The position numbers were made by a program, and so were the translations under genes. A DNA stretch of 60,217 nt, taken from positions 1 through 60,217 of IMG/VR virus record IMGVR_UViG_3300021962_000113; one strand, written 5' to 3'. Positions 37,707 to 47,010 of the stretch are shown piece after piece. Numbering within the stretch: position 1 is the first letter of the stretch; every line of letters begins with the position of its first letter. Below the pieces are notes generated by a model. The model did not search any database, had not been told where the DNA came from, and was given only the letters and a program-made list of their open reading frames with translations. Source of the DNA: a virus.

Positions 37707-38020
37707 ACTACGCTTTCCTTGACTGTGACTTTCTTAGGTATACCCTTAAAAGTTAGCCCAGTCACAATGTACTCAAAGTTAACATAATATATTCCTGGGG
37801 CTAAAGAATCTGTATTGGATAGAGTAAATAGATAACCTTGAGTCACTTCTGGACTAGTATAATCTGCAACAGTAAACGTTTTGAGTACTGCGGCTGATTC
37901 TAATGGTACTTCGCCTCTTTGAGACGCTTTTAGTACTGCGGTTACTCCTGAAATAAGTGACTTAGTGCCAGTTACTACAGCGGGAATAACCAGGCTCTCA
38001 CCTTGATATATAACGTACAT
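37703..38020 (-). CDS. Small beta-rich hypothetical protein (105 aa)
   Basis: A 105-residue beta-rich protein (YQGESLVIPAVVTGTKSLIS; LAPGIYYVNFEYIVTGLTF) with the look of a small Ig-like or decoration domain. It has an excellent ribosome binding site (GCAGGAGG) overlapping the end of large terminase and ends overlapping the 68-aa gene by 4 bases. It could be a capsid or tail decoration protein; that is inference from fold appearance only. Confidence 0.6.
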   Translation of the reverse strand: MYVIYQGESLVIPAVVTGTKSLISGVTAVLKASQRGEVPLESAAVLKTFTVADYTSPEVTQGYLFTLSNTDSLAPGIYYVNFEYIVTGLTFKGIPKKVTVKESVV

Positions 38021-39309
38021 TAAAAACCTCCTGCGCTAGTTTTATAGCTATAAAGCGCGTACCTAATAGCGTCGGCCATGTGGGACGCGTCATTATGTAG
38101 TGGCTTTTCTTTTTGTAAACTTTGATTTGGATCCCACTGATACTGATCAATTGAATACAGAGTATTCTTTAAATTGGGATCCACAATAATTCTATCATTA
38201 TCCGCTAGGGAGGCTACATAGCCTATACCATCTAAAACGGATTTTTTCGCATTTGTAGTGGGAATATCGTATTCCTGCGCGAAGTCATAACGCTGCTGCT
38301 GGTTAGCAGAATCAATATAAATATAATCTATATTCCACTTATCCATCAGAGCTTTAATATTTTTAGCGTGTCCAGAGGTAACTTCCTCGTTATCTAGGTA
38401 TTCATCTAGTATATAGAACTTTTCATCTTCCCAATTGAACGCTATGACACACATTGCTGTTGGGTCACGGAAGCCAAGGTCGAGTCCTGCGAATACGTCG
38501 CATTTCTTAAGATTTAAATCCTTAGTATCACGAACACACTCTTCTTTGATCTGCCAGCATTTACCTTCGAAGGTAGAGAAGTCAGCTTCATATTCCTGTC
38601 TGAACTCTGCGTCTGACATTGATCTGCGTGCCTCTTGAACATCTTGTTCCGACATTCTAGGATTATCCTTATAAGTGGCCTTAACAGAGAACCACTCTGG
38701 GAATTCATTAGTAAATCCTCTATCAAATAGCTTTGAAAACCAGTTATTCTTACCACGAGGTGTAGAAATAAATAGTGCCTTTGAGTTTGGCTTATCTAGT
38801 GTAGGTCTTAGTGATACGTTGAACGCATCTAGTCCATCTGTAAGCGCGGCTTCGTCAAAGATAATTAGATCATAAGAACGACCTACGCAGCTATCAACCT
38901 GATTAATAGAACCGATTCTAATTGTGGATCCGTTAGATAGCTCAATAACTCTATCTTTTGCGTTATCCTTAGCTACCTCTAGATTGAACCTCTTAATAAG
39001 CGATCTTTGTAAATCAAAAGAAATACTCGATAGATTATAGTTTGGCGCCATGATTAGTACATTGGAGCCAGGTACTAATGAAACTACCTGGCCCACAACG
39101 TTTGCTATGTAGGTCTTGCCTTGACGACGTGATAGAGCAGCACACCCAAAACGATACTTAGGGTTATTTATACCATTTATAAGAGCTATCTGAGAGGGTA
39201 AAGGATCTATCTCTAACTCTTTTAGATAGTTTCCAATGGGTACGCGCATAAACGCATTTGGATATTGAACTATAACGTCTTGTGGTATGTCTGCTCTACT
39301 TACTATCAT
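38020..39309 (-). CDS. terL: Terminase large subunit
   Basis: A 429-residue packaging motor. The ATPase has a Walker-A-like SRRQGKTY (about residues 60-67) and Walker B DLIIFDEAAL (D152/E153), with a coupling motif near STPRGKNNWF. The RNase H-like nuclease begins at GLDLGFRDPTA (D277), with further acids in YIDSAN (D333) and near HNDASHMADAIRYAL. It pumps DNA into the prohead and cuts concatemers. Unusually, the probable small subunit is about 8.7 kb upstream in the same operon, with lysis and curli-like genes between them. Confidence 0.93.
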   Translation of the reverse strand: MIVSRADIPQDVIVQYPNAFMRVPIGNYLKELEIDPLPSQIALINGINNPKYRFGCAALSRRQGKTYIANVVGQVVSLVPGSNVLIMAPNYNLSSISFDLQRSLIKRFNLEVAKDNAKDRVIELSNGSTIRIGSINQVDSCVGRSYDLIIFDEAALTDGLDAFNVSLRPTLDKPNSKALFISTPRGKNNWFSKLFDRGFTNEFPEWFSVKATYKDNPRMSEQDVQEARRSMSDAEFRQEYEADFSTFEGKCWQIKEECVRDTKDLNLKKCDVFAGLDLGFRDPTAMCVIAFNWEDEKFYILDEYLDNEEVTSGHAKNIKALMDKWNIDYIYIDSANQQQRYDFAQEYDIPTTNAKKSVLDGIGYVASLADNDRIIVDPNLKNTLYSIDQYQWDPNQSLQKEKPLHNDASHMADAIRYALYSYKTSAGGF

Positions 39310-39321
39310 ATTATTCCTAAA

Positions 39322-41382
39322 CTACTTTGAGGTTGCTCTATATATTCCATCCCAATTAGTGGGAGGATTACTCTTGTATTCTTTAATTCTTTCCAGCATC
39401 ATATCGTAATACTGGGTCATTTCATCTTTCCAGCATTTCTTTAGATCATTTGCGTACTTTTCCGCAACTTGCCAATTACCCAGACGATATAGCTCTAAGA
39501 ACTTGACATGCTGTTTCTCAGCTAATGGGTCATGGAACGGTAACACGGTAAATATTGTGGCGGGCTCGGTCTTACCTTTTACTGCGAGTAGATCGAGCTC
39601 AACGACTTGGTATGTTTCTCGCACATACTTAGCCGTTTTTGGTCCAATGACGATTTTGACACCGTAAGGCTTGGATTGACCTTCGAGGCGAGCAGCAAGA
39701 TTAACGCCATCGCCAAGACAGGTATAATCAAAACGCTGATCAGAGCCCATATTGCCAACAACCACGGTATCAGTATTAATACCGAGGCCCATACCAAAAG
39801 CTGGTATACCTTCTTTCGTAATTTCTGCATTAAATTCCTCCAGGGAGCTCATCATCTGGAAGGCAGTCTTCACAGCATCCAGTGCGTGGTCTTGATTATT
39901 AACAGGTGCATTCCAGAATGCCATCTGAGCATCTCCGATGTACTTATCTAGTGTGCCCTTGTTCTCAAGAATTGCTTTAGTCATAGCAGTCATGTAGCGG
40001 TTCATGATCTGCGTGAGCCCCTGCACATTCTTACCATAGTGTTCAGAAATTGTAGTGAATCCGCGAACGTCTGTGAACATGATTGATAGTTCTTGTTCAG
40101 TGCCACCAAGTTGTAGTAGTTCTGGCTGACGTTGTAGCTGAGCAACTAAGTCTGGGCTTAGATAAGTACCAAACTGCTTCTTAATCTGTTGTTTCTGTAA
40201 ATACTCACTGATAAACTTAACGGTATAGATGTGTAAGTAAATTACCAATGCTGCAAGAATGTTGAAGGAAATATCAAACAATATCATACTATGGGTAAAC
40301 AGATAGATTGGAGCGTAAACATACCCAACTAGCAATATACCAATCCAGACTATTGAATACCTTACTCTTGACAGTATTATAATCGACAACGAAAGTACCA
40401 CGAATGCCACAAGATCAACAAGACCTACCCAATTCGGAATTGATACTGAATCTCCCTTTATTAGAGTTTCAAGCAGACTGGCTTGTAGCTGATGGGGGTG
40501 CTGCGCGCCTGAAGGAGTTGCTACAGGATTATTCAATCCAGCTGCAGTCACTCCTAGAATCACGATTTTACCTTTCAAATCAGGTAAAGGATCAGCACCA
40601 ATTTCTACTGACTGGAATCGGTAATTAGGATTAATGAATGTTCTTCCATATTCATCTGTTTTAATTGTTTCAAAAGAAGGAATTCGTAATGCTTCAACAC
40701 CCGTCTGATTTACCTTTGCCTGATACGAAGGATCTCCGGCAGCAACACGCAGCATCTCTAGAGCAAATGCGGGGTAGTATTCCCCGGATGATTGCGCTAG
40801 AAGAGGAACTCGCCTTACGACCCCGTCAGTCTCAGGTAGAGTTGATGTTACTCCCACACCGGCAGCGGCTTCTTGAAGAAGTGGGATATTACTTAGAACG
40901 CATGGATATTGAGGAAGAAATTCAGTTGCTTCTCCATCGCCGACTATTGCTACTCCAGTACGGCGGGTTGTTAAAGCACTCTTTGAACCAGAGCAATCCG
41001 TGGTTACGGTTTGACTTAGGACTGTTGGAGTGCCTGTGAGACTTTCTGAAAAAGCTTTGTCTCCGCCGAAGCGATCGGCTTCAGGATAAAGTATTGTGCT
41101 GCCAACGATACCAGCGCCAGCGCTATAAATATCTGAATTAATTTTAGCATAAACACTCCTCGGGAAAGGCCATTGTCCATACTTTTCAATTGCCTTTTCA
41201 CCAATATTTGCGACTACAATCTGTTCTGATTGTACTGGACTATCTAGCATAAGATAGTCGTAGTACTTTAATTTCATGCTGTCGACTAAGAACGGATTCA
41301 TCAACTTTACTGATAACAATAGCAGTACTGTAGCTACTGCTAGCCACGGTGATAATAGAATTTTACTCGCCTTGTTTAACAT
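39322..41382 (-). CDS. CHASE2-domain class III adenylate/guanylate cyclase
   Basis: A 686-residue membrane-bound cyclase. Order: an N-terminal membrane anchor (about 10-28), an external CHASE2 sensor domain (about 35-310), three membrane segments (about 315-385), then a class III catalytic domain. From this start the metal aspartates are D438 (MFTDVRGFT) and D484 (KYIGDAQMAFW), base-selecting residues are K480 and T554 (DYTCLGD), and the transition-state pair is N561/R565 (VNLAARLEG). All catalytic residues are present and the K/T pair favours ATP, hence cAMP. ATG 41382 follows GGAGGA; an upstream ATG at 41409 has no good site. FecR and CHASE2-cyclase genes are often neighbours in bacteria. 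It is most unusual in a phage. Confidence 0.92.
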   Translation of the reverse strand: MLNKASKILLSPWLAVATVLLLLSVKLMNPFLVDSMKLKYYDYLMLDSPVQSEQIVVANIGEKAIEKYGQWPFPRSVYAKINSDIYSAGAGIVGSTILYPEADRFGGDKAFSESLTGTPTVLSQTVTTDCSGSKSALTTRRTGVAIVGDGEATEFLPQYPCVLSNIPLLQEAAAGVGVTSTLPETDGVVRRVPLLAQSSGEYYPAFALEMLRVAAGDPSYQAKVNQTGVEALRIPSFETIKTDEYGRTFINPNYRFQSVEIGADPLPDLKGKIVILGVTAAGLNNPVATPSGAQHPHQLQASLLETLIKGDSVSIPNWVGLVDLVAFVVLSLSIIILSRVRYSIVWIGILLVGYVYAPIYLFTHSMILFDISFNILAALVIYLHIYTVKFISEYLQKQQIKKQFGTYLSPDLVAQLQRQPELLQLGGTEQELSIMFTDVRGFTTISEHYGKNVQGLTQIMNRYMTAMTKAILENKGTLDKYIGDAQMAFWNAPVNNQDHALDAVKTAFQMMSSLEEFNAEITKEGIPAFGMGLGINTDTVVVGNMGSDQRFDYTCLGDGVNLAARLEGQSKPYGVKIVIGPKTAKYVRETYQVVELDLLAVKGKTEPATIFTVLPFHDPLAEKQHVKFLELYRLGNWQVAEKYANDLKKCWKDEMTQYYDMMLERIKEYKSNPPTNWDGIYRATSK

Positions 41383-42454
41383 TGATGATGGTTCCTCCAG
41401 CCGGGTCATTTATTTCAATTAGGAATGACTTTCCATTACTATCTATAAAGAGATTTTTATTCTCATCTTTCTTGAATCTTACGTCAATGGTAGTTCCTAA
41501 TGATCTTACGAGACGAATAGAATCACCAGATAAAATAGTGGCAATCTGAGTTACAGTATCTAAACCGAATGTAGTGCCACATAACTTAGTCTCTTCTCTA
41601 GTGATACAGTTATCAATCCCTAAACTATTGTCAAGAAAGTCTTCTTTGAGAAAGTCAGCATCTATTGTATTAATATCTAGATCTGAACTTGCAAGCGTGT
41701 CTTCTGCAAGATCATCTTTTGCTAAGAAGTCTATATCTAGTTCACTTAGGTCAAGAATGTTCTCTCTTCTGTCACTACCATCTTGATCATACTGCATTTC
41801 TTGTGCAGGAGACACGATTAGCATATTGTCAATCATATCTAGCGTTAGGTTAAGAATAACAGGTTGTGATGGTCTGCTGTCCATCGTAGATACCATAGTA
41901 GCTTGGAACGCTTTAGTAAGAATAACTGATCCGGCAGCATTAGACACTGTAATTTCCCCTACCGAACCATCAGGTTCCGGAAGTAGAATGACCAAGCTTT
42001 TACCGAAGTCATCTACTGTTGTAGCGAAATCCGTACCGCGTACCGCGATGGTAGCGGTTGGAGTTCTAAGACTAATATTACTCTTGCTTATTCTGCCGCT
42101 CTGTCCTGTTGCGAATCTTGCTGTACCACTTGCGAACTTAAGAGCCATTCTTGAAGTAGAGGGTTTGCCACTATATACAAAATCGTCAATCACAAGCTTA
42201 GAATGCTCAGTGACCTTAACAATAGAGTTATCTATAAATGTAATTTCAACTCTACCATTACCAGTTTGCACCTTATCTAATTTGGCAATAGGTAGCTGAG
42301 GTCGTGTAGCAACCTTAGTGGTTTTCTTCACGACCTCACTTATACCTCGGTTTTGTGTAACTTTACCTATATTAGCATGGGCCACCGGCGTTACACTGAT
42401 TAATAGTAATAGTGCTGCCGTTGCTTGTGCTATTGATCTTAAGTGTGTCAACAT
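41363..42454 (-). CDS. Exported FecR-domain protein
   Basis: A 363-residue protein with a signal peptide (hydrophobic core ATAALLLLISVTPV, cleavage after about AHA-27) and a FecR-type beta domain at about 40-165. Characteristic stretches are KVQTGNGRVEITFIDNSIVK, FASGTARFATGQSG and SLRTPTATIAVRGTDF. The acidic linker (residues about 225-285) and a C-terminal domain with cysteines (NCITREETKLCG) are not recognised. In bacteria FecR-domain proteins of this soluble type often lie beside CHASE2 cyclases and may present periplasmic signals to them. It overlaps the curlin gene by 83 bases and the cyclase gene by 20. Confidence 0.85.
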   Translation of the reverse strand: MLTHLRSIAQATAALLLLISVTPVAHANIGKVTQNRGISEVVKKTTKVATRPQLPIAKLDKVQTGNGRVEITFIDNSIVKVTEHSKLVIDDFVYSGKPSTSRMALKFASGTARFATGQSGRISKSNISLRTPTATIAVRGTDFATTVDDFGKSLVILLPEPDGSVGEITVSNAAGSVILTKAFQATMVSTMDSRPSQPVILNLTLDMIDNMLIVSPAQEMQYDQDGSDRRENILDLSELDIDFLAKDDLAEDTLASSDLDINTIDADFLKEDFLDNSLGIDNCITREETKLCGTTFGLDTVTQIATILSGDSIRLVRSLGTTIDVRFKKDENKNLFIDSNGKSFLIEINDPAGGTIINVKQGE

Positions 42455-43070
42455 TAGTTGTACTCTGTTGGTTTATTGCTACTGTATTAGTGTTGCCTGT
42501 AAGAAGCATTTCAATGTTCTTCCCAGCAGTGCCGTTCTGTACGGTAGTAATAGTATTACCATCGCCTGCTATTGTCTTGGTGTTCACAACATCATCTGCG
42601 TTTATAGTAGATGTAAGTGTATTGGTGTCGCCAGTGACTGTGATAGTCTGAGTTGCATTCGTAGCAGAAGCCGCTGTACCTTGGTTAAATGTGAGATTAT
42701 TTGAATCCCCAGTAACTTCAAGGGTCTTGGTTGAACCAGCTACACTAGCGGCATCACCTTGATCATATATTAATTCGTTACTATCTCCTGTAACAGTAAC
42801 ATTCATATCAACATTATCCGCCTGAACAATAGAGCCTTGTATAGAGTTGTTATTGCCTTCTTGAGTTGTTGTTATTGTTTGACTATTTCCCTGAAGAACT
42901 ACACGATTTTGTTCTGTTCCAATAGTATTGCCCTGCCCCTTTTGAGTAACAGTAATTACACTACTATCACCGACCTGGTCAATAAAGATTGAGTTAGTAG
43001 TTGATTGTGCCATCACTGCTGTACTAGCTAGTGATGACATTGCTACAAGTATTAATGAATTCCTTCCCAT
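42372..43070 (-). CDS. Curlin-repeat amyloid-like secreted protein (CsgA/CsgB-like)
   Basis: A 232-residue protein with a signal peptide (cleavage about AVMAQ, residue 22). The mature protein is made of Asn/Gln/Thr/Gly-rich repeats. The first two resemble curlin repeats (SIFIDQVGDSSVITVTQKG; VVLQGNSQTITTTQEGNNNS), with Gln and Asn at ladder positions. About five later repeats of roughly 25 residues share a TVTGDSN.L...QG pattern. This composition predicts a beta-solenoid amyloid subunit exported through CsgG. It ends in CNAGGPC with two cysteines. It starts at the CsgG stop, so the two are co-translated. I cannot tell CsgA from CsgB. Confidence 0.8.
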   Translation of the reverse strand: MGRNSLILVAMSSLASTAVMAQSTTNSIFIDQVGDSSVITVTQKGQGNTIGTEQNRVVLQGNSQTITTTQEGNNNSIQGSIVQADNVDMNVTVTGDSNELIYDQGDAASVAGSTKTLEVTGDSNNLTFNQGTAASATNATQTITVTGDTNTLTSTINADDVVNTKTIAGDGNTITTVQNGTAGKNIEMLLTGNTNTVAINQQSTTNVDTLKINSTSNGSTITINQCNAGGPC

Positions 43071-43861
43071 TACTCCCTTCCAACATAGTTAAAGTATCCT
43101 TTCTCTATTCCTTGTTTTATTAATTGTAAAACTGCTTCTTCAATGGCCATCTTTACGGCCATAGTATTTGCTTCATTTTCAGTCATGCCTACTTCGGCCT
43201 CGACTAACTTTGTGCCTACATCTACAAACTTAAATAGTGACAAGTCCCTTCCGACGGACAATACCGTTTTAGAAACCTGTACATTAAGAATTACTTCTCC
43301 CGTGTTAGTGTTAACGGCACGTAACGCTACTACCACTTGATCCTTTCTATACATGGTTGTGCCACCAATGCCTAAGTACCTAGCACCAGCACCTCCGGTT
43401 TGTATATTGGTGTCATATCCTATGATGCCTCCCTGAATGATAAGGCCTGCGAATAACATTGGTTCGAGTTTATTTACACCCTCACCTAAATACTCTTCTC
43501 GAGTTTGGCGAACAATTTGACGCTCCTTTGCAAGATCATCAACTCTATTACGCTCCACTACCCTAAACCACGTTCCCCCACCAGCATCTTTTAATGCTGC
43601 AATAAGGAGTGAAGTTCCTCCTTGAGTTACTGCGGTTGAAAGATCTGCTCCGGCTGCCGAAGCTTTACGCTGACCAGTTAGGTCTGGAAAATCATATACT
43701 GCAACAACAGCTTGTCTTTCTGGGGGAGGTAGACTTCGCAAGTCTTTAGACTGCGTATTTACTACGGCTGCCTTTTCCCTGATGTCAAGAATTCCGGTCC
43801 CGGTGGACACACAGCCGCCTAATAACAGGGGCGCTAGCAAGACTACGTACTTCATTACCAT
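43070..43861 (-). CDS. csgG: CsgG-like curli secretion lipoprotein
   Basis: A 263-residue outer-membrane lipoprotein matching E. coli CsgG along nearly its whole length (277 aa). The lipobox LLGGC puts the lipidated cysteine at 17. Matching blocks include VAVYDFPDLTGQ, ALKDAGGGTWFRVVERNRVD, IQGGIIGYDTN, GGAGARYLGIGGTTMY and NTNTGEVILNVQVSKTVLS. Several of these correspond to the constriction loop and barrel hairpins of CsgG. CsgG forms a nonameric 36-strand channel that secretes curli subunits. It overlaps the CsgF gene by 7 bases. Its presence with CsgF and a curlin-like substrate indicates a working export unit. Confidence 0.93.
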   Translation of the reverse strand: MVMKYVVLLAPLLLGGCVSTGTGILDIREKAAVVNTQSKDLRSLPPPERQAVVAVYDFPDLTGQRKASAAGADLSTAVTQGGTSLLIAALKDAGGGTWFRVVERNRVDDLAKERQIVRQTREEYLGEGVNKLEPMLFAGLIIQGGIIGYDTNIQTGGAGARYLGIGGTTMYRKDQVVVALRAVNTNTGEVILNVQVSKTVLSVGRDLSLFKFVDVGTKLVEAEVGMTENEANTMAVKMAIEEAVLQLIKQGIEKGYFNYVGRE

Positions 43862-44298
43862 TTGAATCCGCTCGTTGGAATTATAATTTCTGTTTGATTA
43901 CCTTGAGCATCAACGATAACCAATTTTATCTCAGTGTCAGTCTTTTCATACTTAATAACATTACCTTCGAGGGTAAATTCTCCGGATTCTCCACCCATTT
44001 CACCAAACAGGTTATTAGTTAACTGTTGAGCTAACTGAGAATATATACGAGATTGTAAGTTGTTTAGAAAGCGATTGAGAATAGAATTCTTTTCTTCAAG
44101 AGCCTGTGCCTTTAGGTCAGCTTCTATCTTATCTTGGATAGCTTTCTTACGTAGAGTTTCTTGGTTTTCAATGGTCAACCATTGCGCTCCGGCATTGTTA
44201 CCCGAGAAAGATGGATTCTTGAATTGAAATACTATATCACTTGCATGTGCAGGAGTGCTTACTAAGAGTAGTGACAGTATGATTATTCTTTTCGGCAT
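43855..44298 (-). CDS. csgF: CsgF-like curli assembly factor
   Basis: A 147-residue exported protein. After a signal peptide ending in PAHA it has DIVFQFKNPSFSGNNAG, the CsgF N-terminus (TFQFRNPNFGGNP in E. coli), which inserts in the CsgG channel. A helical middle (LNNLQSRIYSQLAQQL) is followed by a beta C-terminal domain (IKLVIVDAQGNQTEIIIPTS), as in CsgF (138 aa). CsgF caps CsgG on the outer face and couples secretion to nucleation. The gene is the first of the csgF-csgG-curlin-FecR-cyclase run. Confidence 0.92.
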   Translation of the reverse strand: MPKRIIILSLLLVSTPAHASDIVFQFKNPSFSGNNAGAQWLTIENQETLRKKAIQDKIEADLKAQALEEKNSILNRFLNNLQSRIYSQLAQQLTNNLFGEMGGESGEFTLEGNVIKYEKTDTEIKLVIVDAQGNQTEIIIPTSGFKW

Positions 44299-44308
44299 TT
44301 GTTCTCCC

Positions 44309-44611
44309 TTAGTTACTATCTTGTTTTTTAGTGATTTTGTTGATCTCTTTCTCTGCCTCTAGTCTTTCGTGTTCGATTGATTTACCGCGCAAATAGAGTA
44401 CAGTATCTACTTTTTGCTTTAAACGAATTAAATCGTTGTCAAGCATACGAATACGATCAATTAATCCAATTAATGTAGAGTTTGCTTGGCTCAACACTGG
44501 ATCGACTTCCTCAGTTGCCCACTGCCAAACATAAAATACAAAGTATCCCATACCGGCGGCGGCAATGACTGGGAAACCATACTCACTGATTAGTGCACCA
44601 ATATCTCCCAT
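44309..44611 (-). CDS. Small membrane protein, paralogue of next gene
   Basis: A 100-residue protein with one membrane segment (FPVIAAAGMGYFVFYVWQW, about residues 13-31) and a charged helical coiled-coil tail (residues 45-95). It is clearly related to the gene immediately upstream (both have GFP.AAA..GYFVF at the same place, then an L/I-heptad helix), so they arose by duplication. One-TM proteins with a helical cytoplasmic tail resemble BhlA/UviB-type bacteriocin or phage holin-like proteins. Position next to csgF suggests either lysis or a link to the curli unit. Confidence 0.7.
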   Translation of the reverse strand: MGDIGALISEYGFPVIAAAGMGYFVFYVWQWATEEVDPVLSQANSTLIGLIDRIRMLDNDLIRLKQKVDTVLYLRGKSIEHERLEAEKEINKITKKQDSN

Positions 44612-44892
44612 TAATCTTTCCTAGCGTCATCTTTGCCGTCTGCTCTAGAAATACGGTCAATGTCAGGTCTAAGACCTAGTGCATTGGATACAACTGTATC
44701 AATACGTATAACGTCGTGATTCATAGTTTTAACACGATTGTCTAGTCCCGTAATGATGCCCTTCATGCCACTGATACTGCTAGTGACACCAGCAAGGATG
44801 AACTTAAGTGTTAAAAACACGAAATACCCAGCAGCTAATGCCGCGGCAATAGGAAATCCTACGTCGGCTATAAGTTTAAAGAACTCTTCCAA
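44611..44892 (-). CDS. Small membrane protein, holin-like
   Basis: A 93-residue protein with one strong membrane segment (GFPIAAALAAGYFVFLTLKF, about residues 12-31) and an amphipathic, partly charged tail. The start is TTG 44892 with a perfect GGAG seven bases upstream. It is a paralogue of the 100-residue protein whose start coincides with its stop. Both could act as a pair of holin-like proteins or as subunits of one membrane complex. Confidence 0.7.
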   Translation of the reverse strand: MEEFFKLIADVGFPIAAALAAGYFVFLTLKFILAGVTSSISGMKGIITGLDNRVKTMNHDVIRIDTVVSNALGLRPDIDRISRADGKDDARKD

Positions 44893-45005: not shown

Positions 45006-46196
45006 TTAGAGTTGAGCAGCAAATTTACGGGTAAGAGATTTTCTTTCCTCTAGGCCAATTGTACCACCATTAATTTTTTTAGTCAAAGCCAGGATAACCG
45101 CATCACTAACTCCTAGATCACATACTGACCATAGTTTGTTGCGTTCGAAGAAGAATAGCGCTGACTCAAAGGCTAGTTCTCCTGCTACTAGATCTGGATT
45201 ATCCATAATCTCTGGGCGACCGCAGAATTTTGCAAATGCGGTATAATTATCTTTTCCGGTTAACTGAAGAGCGCCGCGTCCACGATACTTGTATCCGTCT
45301 CCAGAAGACTCAGGACCATTACCCATTCTATTGGCATATACTTTATTAGCAATCTTTTCTGGATTACGAGCATAGCCTGCTGTAGAAGCAATAGTTGGGA
45401 AGTACTTGCGGAAAGTACTATTTAATCCTTTATCTGAATAGTTTAGGTTTTCTGAGAAAGCCTTGAAATGTCCACTTTCGTGACAGGTCTGAGCAAAGAA
45501 GTGAGCCGCTCTAGCAGGAGTCATTTTGAAATGGGCCATCGCCGCTTTCATAGTTCCTGGGCCAAAAGCTCCGTCTGCTGTTACACCACATTTTTCTTGT
45601 AGTGCTGCAATAGGATTCTTTGATTTAACGGCTGTGGCTACTGCAGCTACTGCTACTGTTGCCGCTACAGGCGCTGCTGACATGACCTTATCTTTTAGTT
45701 CCAAAGGAACGGTGGAAGGGTCGAAGTCCGCGACTGGCGTATAAACGGTGCCGCCTTTTGCTGATTTAGTAGCAATTAGGCGCTGTCCTCTATTATTACC
45801 ATTGCGCTTTAAAGAGGCATGAACCCATCCTGAGTTAGCTCCTTCTTTAGCGCTATAAAATTCTAAGATGACCTGGTCGAATACTAAATGATCCGCTACC
45901 CAGTCTGCTAGCTCTTTATTGGAGATACCAGGTACCTCGAAGTCAATAGCCTCACCATTACAGTGCTGCGAAGTCTTTGAACCCTTAACCTTAGCATTTA
46001 CGGCTGGAGACCTGTAACAAGAATTTACTTTTACTGGCTTTCCGTAGTGTGAACGAACCTTCTCAAGAATATTTTCACATACGTGTCTCATATTCTCAAT
46101 ATGTTCTTGAGTTGGCATATTGGAAAGTCCTAGCTTCTTAGCCGTAGGAGATGCAGTTAGCTCTTCTAGGGTAAAATGTTCCGTAATTTTGGTCAT
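45006..46196 (-). CDS. Endolysin: M15 peptidase + PG-binding + GH19 glycosidase
   Basis: A 396-residue modular lysin. Residues 1-145 are an M15-type D,D-carboxypeptidase-like domain with zinc ligands H78, D85 (SQHCNGEAIDF) and H126 (WVHASL). Residues about 170-185 are an Ala/Val-rich linker. Residues about 193-220 are a short PG-binding-1 motif (LQEKCGVTADGAFGPGTM). Residues 221-396 are a GH19 chitinase/lysozyme-like domain with catalytic E240 (CHESGHF) and GYKYRGRGALQLTG. Two catalytic activities (peptide and glycan bonds) in one lysin are not rare but the combination is elaborate. There is no signal peptide, so it needs a holin. Confidence 0.92.
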   Translation of the reverse strand: MTKITEHFTLEELTASPTAKKLGLSNMPTQEHIENMRHVCENILEKVRSHYGKPVKVNSCYRSPAVNAKVKGSKTSQHCNGEAIDFEVPGISNKELADWVADHLVFDQVILEFYSAKEGANSGWVHASLKRNGNNRGQRLIATKSAKGGTVYTPVADFDPSTVPLELKDKVMSAAPVAATVAVAAVATAVKSKNPIAALQEKCGVTADGAFGPGTMKAAMAHFKMTPARAAHFFAQTCHESGHFKAFSENLNYSDKGLNSTFRKYFPTIASTAGYARNPEKIANKVYANRMGNGPESSGDGYKYRGRGALQLTGKDNYTAFAKFCGRPEIMDNPDLVAGELAFESALFFFERNKLWSVCDLGVSDAVILALTKKINGGTIGLEERKSLTRKFAAQL

Positions 46197-46468
46197 TACT
46201 TCACCTTTTTAGCTAGTTTAGTTACCTGAGTCGCTGTCTTCTTTAGCTCGGTCTTAGCAATGGTTAAATCAGCTACATCTACTTTACCATCCTTATTAAG
46301 GTCTAGTGCGAGTTGTGCGTCTTTAACATCTAGCTTGCCGTCTTTATTGAAGTCTAGCATTTCTTTAGCTTGTGCTTCGAATGAGCCGTTTAATTTATTT
46401 CCTAGTGCGATGCCTACTAAAATACCGGCTAGAAACGCTAGGACTGCTGCTATAATAATTGTTGTCAT
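46196..46468 (-). CDS. Membrane-anchored protein with two EF-hand/dockerin-like loops
   Basis: A 90-residue protein with an N-terminal membrane segment (residues 3-22). It is followed by two canonical 12-residue calcium loops, DFNKDGKLDVKD (39-50) and DLNKDGKVDVAD (56-67), spaced as in dockerin/EF-hand pairs, and a basic tail. It shares its boundary base with the endolysin gene, so it belongs to the lysis group. It could sense calcium or pair with another membrane protein; holin-regulator or spanin-like roles are guesses. Confidence 0.8.
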   Translation of the reverse strand: MTTIIIAAVLAFLAGILVGIALGNKLNGSFEAQAKEMLDFNKDGKLDVKDAQLALDLNKDGKVDVADLTIAKTELKKTATQVTKLAKKVK

Positions 46469-46478
46469 TTATATCTCC

Positions 46479-46844
46479 TTAGAACGGACCGTGGTCTTCG
46501 TCATCATCGTCTTGTGTTATTTCTACGGCATCAGGGAGTGCAGGCATCTTAAAATCTGCGTAATTAGTTGTTCCCATCTGTTGCTGCTTGATATTTGGAT
46601 CGAAAGTTTCAGTCTTCATACCCATCATAGTAGCAAAGGAGCCTACAAACGCACCTATAACCATACTAAATGCTGGACCTATAATTTTAAAGATCTCGTT
46701 GTTGTCTATCATCGCGTTAGGTAGAAATAATCCTACTAGTAGAACCAGGACAACGCCAAGCATTACGGAAGCTAAAGTCACCGCCATCAGCCATAGAACA
46801 CGAAGCTGTACGACCACTTTTGTGTCTTCTATACTCTGCGACAC
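46479..46844 (-). CDS. Two-TM holin-like membrane protein
   Basis: A protein of about 121 residues with two strong membrane segments (VLWLMAVTLASVMLGVVLVL; IIGPAFSMVIGAFVGSFATM) joined by a short acidic loop, and an acidic C-terminus (DDDDEDHGPF). This fits a class II holin. GTG 46844 with CCGGAG seven bases upstream begins 5 bases after the preceding stop and is preferred to the TTG at 46865. It lies immediately before the EF-hand and endolysin genes. Confidence 0.7.
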   Translation of the reverse strand: MSQSIEDTKVVVQLRVLWLMAVTLASVMLGVVLVLLVGLFLPNAMIDNNEIFKIIGPAFSMVIGAFVGSFATMMGMKTETFDPNIKQQQMGTTNYADFKMPALPDAVEITQDDDDEDHGPF

Positions 46845-46848
46845 AGGC

Positions 46849-47010
46849 TTACTCCGGAAGAACAACAGTTTCTTCCTCTACGGGTGCTTCTACTACTGCC
46901 GGTACTTCTTCTACCACTGCAGGTGCTTCTTGGGTTAAAGGCACTTTATAGACTAGCTTGTCGCCTTCATATCCCATTTTTTGATTACGCTTAATATATT
47001 CAATAACCAT
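46849..47010 (-). CDS. Short acidic protein (53 aa) in lysis cluster
   Basis: A 53-residue ORF starting MVIEYIKRNQKMGYEG and ending in Ala/Val/Glu/Pro repeats (VVEEVPAVVEAPVEEE). It overlaps the end of the preceding gene by 11 bases and ends 5 bases before the holin-like gene. The Pro/Glu/Val-rich tail resembles that of the 102-aa head protein. No function recognised; too short for most gene callers. Confidence 0.6.
   Translation of the reverse strand: MVIEYIKRNQKMGYEGDKLVYKVPLTQEAPAVVEEVPAVVEAPVEEETVVLPE

Follow-up and report, generated by a model that had tools for sequence, protein, structure and literature searches.

Why should a phage keep several kb of curli genes? Excerpts of three papers offer sibling capture, superinfection defence, uptake and lysis timing as answers. 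The question is raised again by a stretch of viral DNA of 60,217 nucleotides (IMG/VR record IMGVR_UViG_3300021962_000113, positions 1 to 60,217; hereafter the window), which carries a curli cassette of seven genes on its minus strand. Cassettes of this kind are already published for pelagiphages and a methylophage, in the consulted parts of PMC9599517, PMC7029224 and PMC9004378, so that the original prediction, made from the letters alone, cannot keep its claim to novelty. What this analysis adds is a modular organisation with exchange of a block, a dedicated pair of small membrane proteins (TMa and TMb, the TM pair), carriers beyond pelagiphages and a probable capture by Caulobacteraceae.

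The reading that we favour, with moderate confidence, is that of a three-module curli (type VIII secretion) cassette building an anchored fibre on the infected cell, with an arm signalling through cyclic AMP (cAMP). In module 1, CsgG and CsgF would form an outer-membrane pore and curlin would be exported as an extracellular amyloid-type fibre, which a FecR-domain protein may hold as a periplasmic or outer-membrane anchor, in place of CsgE and CsgB, which the cassette seems to lack. Module 2, a CHASE2 adenylate cyclase, would read the envelope and make cAMP, and module 3 would consist of two small inner-membrane proteins specific to the cassette. The seven genes are as follows:

44611-44892, minus strand: TMa, 93 aa, first cassette gene, listed with a TTG start (phrog_18771, 8.9e-35)
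44309-44611, minus strand: TMb, 100 aa, paralogue of TMa (phrog_18771, 5.2e-29)
43855-44298, minus strand: CsgF, signal peptide recognised by eye (PF10614, 3.6e-24; PDB 6l7a, 3.7e-5)
43070-43861, minus strand: CsgG, predicted outer-membrane lipoprotein pore, lipobox LGGC (PF03783, 1e-50; PDB 3x2r, 1.1e-48)
42372-43070, minus strand: curlin-like fibre subunit, predicted all-beta solenoid (family profile, AlphaFold2)
41363-42454, minus strand: secreted FecR-domain protein, proposed fibre anchor (PF04773, 5e-11; fold matches)
39322-41409, minus strand: CHASE2 class III nucleotide cyclase (PF05226, 5.2e-36; PF00211, 3e-20)

The five overlapping genes initially predicted at 39322-44298 are all present there as open reading frames (ORFs) on the minus strand, consecutive ORFs from CsgF to the cyclase overlapping by 7, 1, 83 and 47 nt; two further cassette genes (44309-44892) had been overlooked. 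Assignments to CsgF, CsgG, FecR, CHASE2 and the cyclase domain (Guanylate_cyc) were confirmed, all passing the curated Pfam cut-offs, and a PDB search by sequence matched the cyclase to adenylate cyclases. Scans with a defence-model library and NCBIfam gave no decisive assignment. The same seven genes are found in IMG/VR contig 3300021963_000083 at 99-100% protein identity.

A fibre block inherited and exchanged as one unit

Conservation of the cassette was surveyed by scanning IMG/VR with the cyclase (best 80) and with CsgG (69 loci), and, once HTVC008M and Melnitz were added, the set comprised 132 distinct contigs. The full set of seven genes is colinear in 71 of them (57 have a single curlin and 14 a second one following FecR), and the TM pair is inverted behind the cyclase in 7. 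The order CsgF-CsgG-curlin-FecR(-curlin)-cyclase is contradicted by none of the 132; the remaining contigs are partial, many being cut by contig ends, and 11 show the cyclase alone, mostly at an edge. A further set was selected by scanning IMG/VR with TMa and TMb (best 80 loci). Its 20 regions (from 23) all hold the seven genes; order and strand of module 1 are constant in 20/20, the cyclase and the TM pair being detached or inverted relative to it.

Purifying selection acts on every one of the seven genes. The ratio of nonsynonymous to synonymous substitutions (dN/dS), obtained with our own Nei-Gojobori-type count on 14 chosen pairs (11-14 usable per gene), has a median of 0.03 for TMa, 0.07 for TMb, 0.06 for CsgF, 0.05 for CsgG, 0.09 for curlin, 0.08 for FecR and 0.11 for the cyclase. 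The cassette is no decayed one-off, because its order is conserved over many phage contigs; this order and the purifying selection agree with the functional system originally proposed. The scarcity of CsgG in the 'phages' collection (7 of 50,697 records, most records lacking the cassette) would suit a neutral or decaying host cargo, an explanation which is contradicted by the selection test (dN/dS 0.03-0.11), by the intact frames, the conserved order and the unrelated carriers, and which we find hardly credible.

Modules were delimited by the correlation (rho) between the pairwise identities of genes, in 72 complete cassettes, in 51 dereplicated ones and in the 38 dereplicated cassettes of block types I and II, types being set by CsgG identity (type I accounts for 31 of the 72, window included). 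Over the 72 cassettes CsgF, CsgG, curlin and FecR correlate at 0.67-0.86, and CsgG or FecR with the cyclase at 0.25-0.26. In the 51 dereplicated cassettes the values are 0.63-0.82 within the block and 0.25-0.29 for CsgG or FecR with the cyclase (FecR-cyclase 0.25). Within types I and II the block reaches 0.82-0.87 and TMa-TMb 0.89, the cyclase staying at or below 0.26 with any gene. The block structure is also clear in the cyclase-selected set (49).

A quick tree of the cyclase requires 9 changes of type I, the starred branches forcing 6 or more of them, and type I as a single clade is rejected on this tree (approximately unbiased test, p 2e-17). The changes of type I amount to one each on the CsgG, FecR, curlin and CsgF trees, and to 9 on that of TMa+TMb. 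Borders of an exchange can be read in pairs of contigs. L024 (type I) and L040 (type II) are 85.6% identical in DNA as far as codon 31 of csgF or thereabouts, and similarity resumes, at 81%, roughly 84 nt past the start of the cyclase ORF; the flanks are at 69-93% (mostly 81-93%), and inside the block there is no detectable DNA similarity except 204 nt at 66%. Breakpoints are nearly identical in the pairs L039/L051 and L035/L027. Since these borders lie near the starts of csgF and of the cyclase, the exchanged unit is composed of mature CsgF, CsgG, curlin and FecR. CsgF, CsgG, curlin and FecR are inherited and exchanged as one block, and the cyclase and the TM pair are separable satellites. 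This modularity makes function testable: pore, collar, fibre and FecR must match, the other genes are exchangeable, and the borders are located.

A bolder version of the anchored-fibre reading, which we regard as possible and put forward tentatively, is that of a swappable, serotype-like amyloid coat: with the block exchanged at fixed borders and the cyclase, TM pair and backbone staying in place, related phages would dress infected cells in different fibres, FecR anchors would replace CsgE and CsgB, the cyclase would report on the coat, and freshwater Caulobacteraceae would have recaptured the cassette as a cellular adhesin system. The benefit is the most speculative part; it might be an altered surface of the infected cell, directed against competing phages or serving cell-cell adhesion, and the sole hint of it is that the exposed block is swapped in a serotype-like manner. 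Superinfection block, aggregation and lysis timing are candidate benefits.

Pore, fibre subunit and putative anchor

The N-terminus of CsgF contains a conserved QFKNPSFSG stretch, and the alignment with 6l7a spans residues 7-123. The CsgF N-terminal pattern is retained in 118 of 122 sequences examined, and 117 of 123 have the lipobox pattern of CsgG, so that the cassettes keep their pore, collar and lipid anchor. A role of the pore in uptake, CsgG admitting large nutrients or cofactors during infection, is raised in the passages seen of PMC7029224 and PMC9599517. It is in keeping with CsgG being the best-conserved export part and with the cassette showing no CsgE gate, but leaves the co-inherited curlin and FecR unexplained; we consider it quite improbable.

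The curlin assigned by the original prediction stands by way of its family profile, whereas the window protein alone is without a Pfam curlin match at E<=1 and matches NCBIfam CsgA weakly (0.0021, far under the model cut-off). PF07012 (Curlin_rpt) is matched at E<=1 by 26 of the 33 aligned family members (best 2e-8). A search with the family profile reaches Pontibacter CsgA 8c50 at 7.8e-10 and a curlin of 8enq at 8.7e-4. The AlphaFold2 model is all-beta and solenoid-like (predicted local distance difference test, pLDDT, 83; predicted template modelling score, pTM, 0.80). A Foldseek search with this model gave no PDB match at E<=0.001. SufB/SufD and other beta-helix proteins lead the VIA-align ranking (Z up to 18.5), in which Pontibacter CsgA 8c50 comes seventh (Z 15.3, root-mean-square deviation, rmsd, 9.0); because of this ranking, the model supports a beta-solenoid and not curlin specifically. 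The curlin and FecR frames share 83 nt in the window; in L024 their overlap is 80 nt, in L027 it is 29 nt, and in L064 there is none.

At the start of the FecR protein, a helix resembling a signal peptide leads straight into the FecR region; the model of the protein then shows a low-confidence acidic stretch (around residues 210-280) and a beta-rich C-terminus. This model matches the C-terminal domain of the anti-sigma protein PupR (6ovk) at Z 16.2 and 4m0n at Z 14.9, both FecR-type domains. No sigma factor was matched among the window proteins scanned with Pfam, and no wider search was made. Residues 26-120 align with the 'cell surface anchoring domain' 5ix9, which we take to be a Marinomonas adhesin domain (Z 10.6, rmsd 2.1, 73 of 76 residues, 25% identity), and 5ix9 is also reached by the profile search (0.0086). 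The NCBIfam model of the surface adhesin Lsa33 matches the protein at 8.2e-9, under the model cut-off. Membrane-anchoring domains, first found in a Marinomonas adhesin, are widespread in outer-membrane-displayed adhesins according to the part of PMC13090378 consulted. Because of the fold and profile matches to 5ix9, the Lsa33 match and the existence of such anchoring domains in adhesins, we propose that the FecR protein may act as the fibre anchor.

FecR had been linked to the cyclase in the original prediction. FecR and CHASE2 cyclases are often adjacent in bacteria, as was claimed and as extracts of PMC9239204 and PMC5498481 agree. The link does not extend to inheritance in the cassette: among the 38 type I/II cassettes FecR identity follows that of CsgF, CsgG and curlin (rho 0.85-0.87), the value with the cyclase being 0.21. 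The FecR C-terminus bears a motif, [GN]..I.I.Q, in 86 of 105 proteins vs 4% of shuffled tails. It is present in 44 of 51 cases where the cyclase abuts, in 41 of 47 where it lies more than 100 nt away, in 12 of 20 TM-selected regions, and in none of the 6 cases without a visible cyclase. The best match of a curlin hidden Markov model (HMM) falls in the FecR tail in 26 of 88 proteins vs 5 of 77 shuffled ones, and the putative curlin-like motif of the tail is a lead only.

Several points weigh against an anchored fibre encoded by an exchangeable block. The CsgG-selected set (24) shows no block structure, all genes correlating at 0.51-0.94, and in the TM-selected set (46 entries, repeats of contigs included) the block attains only 0.41-0.66, still above the cyclase, which reaches 0.29 at most. 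Ordinary homologous recombination could account for the swapping of module 1, with no selection for a diverse surface, and dN/dS gives no positive selection. The model of the whole FecR protein is weak (pLDDT 68.6, pTM 0.50), and homology of its tail with a curlin repeat could not be shown (hhalign probability 4%, E 0.01; no tail scoring above 8 bits with the curlin HMM). CsgE was not found among the ten window proteins scanned with Pfam and NCBIfam, the whole window not having been searched; it is likewise absent from phage cassettes in what was seen of PMC9599517. For Melnitz, CsgGF has been modelled and no clumping was observed, as far as the consulted sections of PMC9004378 go. Finally, the making of a fibre, its anchoring by FecR and a cAMP response of the cyclase to the envelope are inferred from the genes.

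Cyclase, membrane-protein pair and neighbouring endolysin

The cyclase frame contains an alternative start, ATG 41382, with GGAGG upstream, which is likely the true one and would reduce the overlap with FecR to 20 nt. Because the GGAGG and this ATG lie inside the FecR 3' end, codons of the FecR tail would double as translation signals. D447, D493, K489 and R574 are conserved in 72/72 cassettes and N570 in 70/72, and the T563 position is occupied by T, S or D in 65, 5 and 2 of the 72. We take these six to be the catalytic residues of the cyclase, which is catalytically complete in the window, as the original prediction announced. The Lys/Thr pair presumably points to ATP as substrate, and the enzyme should make cAMP. 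In L387, L391, L393, L394 and other large contigs the cyclase lies apart from the fibre block and is sometimes inverted; L393 has two cyclases.

The cyclase might itself be the business end of the cassette, flooding the host with cAMP so as to rewire it, or forming a Pycsar-like signalling or exclusion unit with the TM pair, the fibre being accessory. Its median pairwise identity of 62%, vs 32-45% for the fibre block, fits this explanation, as do a match of the PADLOC PycC model to its cyclase domain (5.6e-24), the position of the TM pair beside an oppositely oriented cyclase in 53 of the best 80 TM loci (20 being colinear with csgF and 7 cut or incomplete) and the TM-cyclase correlation of 0.67-0.75 in the cyclase-selected set. 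However, the PycC match does not discriminate, because the class III domain is common to PycC and adenylate cyclases, and TMa and TMb have no match to a nucleotide-binding effector domain in Pfam or the defence models. Moreover the TM-cyclase correlation falls to 0.25-0.26 within types I and II; in the TM-selected set it is 0.13-0.29, and the cyclase correlates with nothing above 0.29 there. The export block is left unexplained. We judge this explanation unlikely. TMa, TMb and the cyclase as one unit, with 0.56-0.85 in the full set and similarly favoured by the cyclase-selected set, was rejected because neither types I and II nor the TM-selected set confirm it.

TMa is hydrophobic over a single N-terminal stretch and charged in its C-terminal part; it aligns with TMb as a paralogue, the pair lying between the endolysin and csgF. 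A TMa homologue is located ahead of csgF in HTVC008M and Melnitz. Within the 'phages' collection TMa and TMb are each present in six records, the same six that hold cyclase and FecR, and the seventh CsgG record is only 1.5 kb long. Among 30 TM family members no kinase was matched in Pfam at E<=1, and 9 have weak matches to YvrJ (best 0.027). A TM pair without curli was considered and rejected: CsgG was found elsewhere on the contig in 23 of the 27 records tested where the TM locus showed none, and in the remaining 4 the contig stops with the visible part of the cassette or a little further on. The pair would be a dedicated inner-membrane component of the cassette.

The neighbours of the cassette in the window are:

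45006-46196, minus strand: endolysin (M15 peptidase + GH19-like; Pfam and PHROG matches)
38020-39309, minus strand: TerL, large terminase (Pfam, PHROG and sequence matches)

The cassette does lie between endolysin and large terminase, as predicted; the tie to lysis and packaging genes is not supported as a general property, the cassettes of HTVC008M and Melnitz having other neighbours. Late expression may be expected. Scans for promoters (25 promoter-like sites vs 26.7 in shuffles) and terminators (9 terminator-like sites vs 6.7 in shuffles) were uninformative. The proximity of the endolysin bears on lysis timing, which is put forward for Melnitz in the part of PMC9004378 seen, where csgA and csgB are called missing. 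Extended to the window, CsgG would be a pinholin-like or outer-membrane pore and TMa/TMb would be holins, acting with the neighbouring endolysin. The cassette abuts the endolysin, relatives of which occupy the same locus in several other cassette contigs, and TMa and TMb are small one-helix proteins with the weak YvrJ matches noted above. Yet a mere pore would need neither curlin nor FecR, both under purifying selection, nor the CsgF N-terminal stretch that is retained; the 16.8-kb stretches of HTVC008M and Melnitz show no annotated endolysin, and a TM pair confined to six cassette records of the 'phages' collection is no general holin. Lysis timing seems to us rather unlikely. Two small putative membrane proteins without family matches are encoded beside the endolysin (46196-46468 and 46479-46865); the second, a possible holin, has relatives at 44-53% near endolysins in L041, L044 and L098. 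In the GenBank record of Melnitz (L142) two proteins are nevertheless annotated as curlin-repeat proteins, at odds with the absence of csgA and csgB stated in the seen part of PMC9004378.

Carriers of the cassette and its relation to known systems

Family searches with neighbouring proteins of the window gave matches to tape measure, distal tail, central tail fibre J, major tail, head maturation protease, portal, TerS and TerL, and also to SbcC/SbcD-like and ribonucleotide reductase families. The carrier is a siphovirus-type phage. Its TerL is at best 48% identical to that of 113-116-kb Vibrio phages, which we take to be T5-like. The cassette has spread among unrelated phages: L071 and the window share 80% identity in CsgG, 77% in FecR, 78% in the cyclase and 84% in TMa, vs 19% in the terminases. 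DNA polymerase phrog_262 flanks the cassette in L082, L008, L015, L048 and L027, and tail fibre J in L115; other phage families were matched by flanking ORFs as well, several of the 20 scanned being without match. The terminase PF03237 is present in 16 of 27 carrier records tested, records reaching 360 kb. The range of carriers is thereby widened to a siphovirus-type phage, contigs of up to 360 kb and two bacterial metagenome-assembled genomes (MAGs).

These two bacterial copies (L144 and L145, Caulobacteraceae MAGs) comprise CsgF, CsgG, two curlins, FecR and cyclase, without the TM pair, amid amidohydrolase, phosphoesterase, haem-degrading-type, glycosyltransferase and TonB-plug genes. FecR, cyclase and TM pair are all absent nearby in 73 of the best 79 bacterial CsgG loci. 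The CsgG of L144 and L145 is nested in the type I phage clade (100/99), and the 17 other bacterial CsgG are placed across a 100/99 branch; within this sampling the nesting argues for capture from phages, and Caulobacteraceae have probably acquired the cassette in this way. L144 and L145 have only the cassette in common (87% DNA identity), similarity stopping at the cyclase stop, and their sites are unrelated. Among 299 genomes of the family a full-length cassette FecR (385 bits) is found in theirs only, 26 others giving FecR-domain matches of up to 98 bits. Neither genome gave an intact counterpart to the flanks of the copy in the other, so that insertion could not be demonstrated through an empty site. 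Chimerism of the MAGs is a possible source of both copies; if they are cases of domestication, function could be studied without phage.

Other bacterial bins probably contain phage contigs. L146 and L152 are flanked by DnaB and DNA methylase genes, and one bin holds five TM pairs on five contigs; L146/L152 and L159/L181 are probably of this origin. The bins concerned (G003 and G004, with L159, L181, L146 and L152), named Rhodobacteraceae and Sphingobacteriales, have several phage-type cassettes.

CsgF and CsgG were first reported in phage, with sibling capture suggested, in PMC7029224 as excerpted, and csgGF is mentioned for temperate sediment viruses in the part of PMC9636769 seen; no further publication on a phage curli cassette was recognised in the open-licence literature searched. 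The accessible sections of PMC9599517 describe, for pelagiphage podo- and myoviruses, a type VIII cassette of one or more histidine kinases, CsgF, CsgG, CsgA/B, FecR, often a second CsgA/B, and adenylate cyclase, transferred between viral families. The order CsgF, CsgG, curlin, FecR, optional second curlin, cyclase is common to the window, HTVC008M and Melnitz, and two small genes precede csgF in all three; the window differs by its siphovirus-type carrier and by identities of 45-50% in CsgG and 40-41% in the cyclase. Where PMC9599517, as far as seen, has one or two 'histidine kinase' genes, the window has TMa and TMb, of 93 and 100 aa and without kinase match; as position and number fit, that label may name the same genes.

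The Campylobacterota and Sinorhizobium clusters (PMC9239204, PMC5498481) likewise set a CHASE2 cyclase beside a secreted or outer-membrane FecR protein; their partners are TPR/phosphodiesterase or Clr, no curli pore being mentioned in the parts consulted, whereas FecR in the window is inherited with the pore and not with the cyclase. With the retention domains of large adhesins (5ix9) the fold of FecR residues 26-120 is shared, those adhesins using type I secretion and the window CsgG. The bacterial csgBAC-csgDEFG system has the CsgG pore, CsgF and the curlin fibre in common with the window, whose cassette adds FecR, CHASE2 cyclase and the TM pair, CsgE, CsgC and CsgD not being seen. The Caulobacter holdfast anchor includes HfaA and HfaD, neither of which was matched among the ten window proteins scanned with NCBIfam. 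Although far better described as a CsgG (1.8e-53), the window CsgG also matches NCBIfam HfaB, the CsgG-like holdfast protein (2.1e-7), and in both systems a CsgG-type pore would serve an anchored amyloid.

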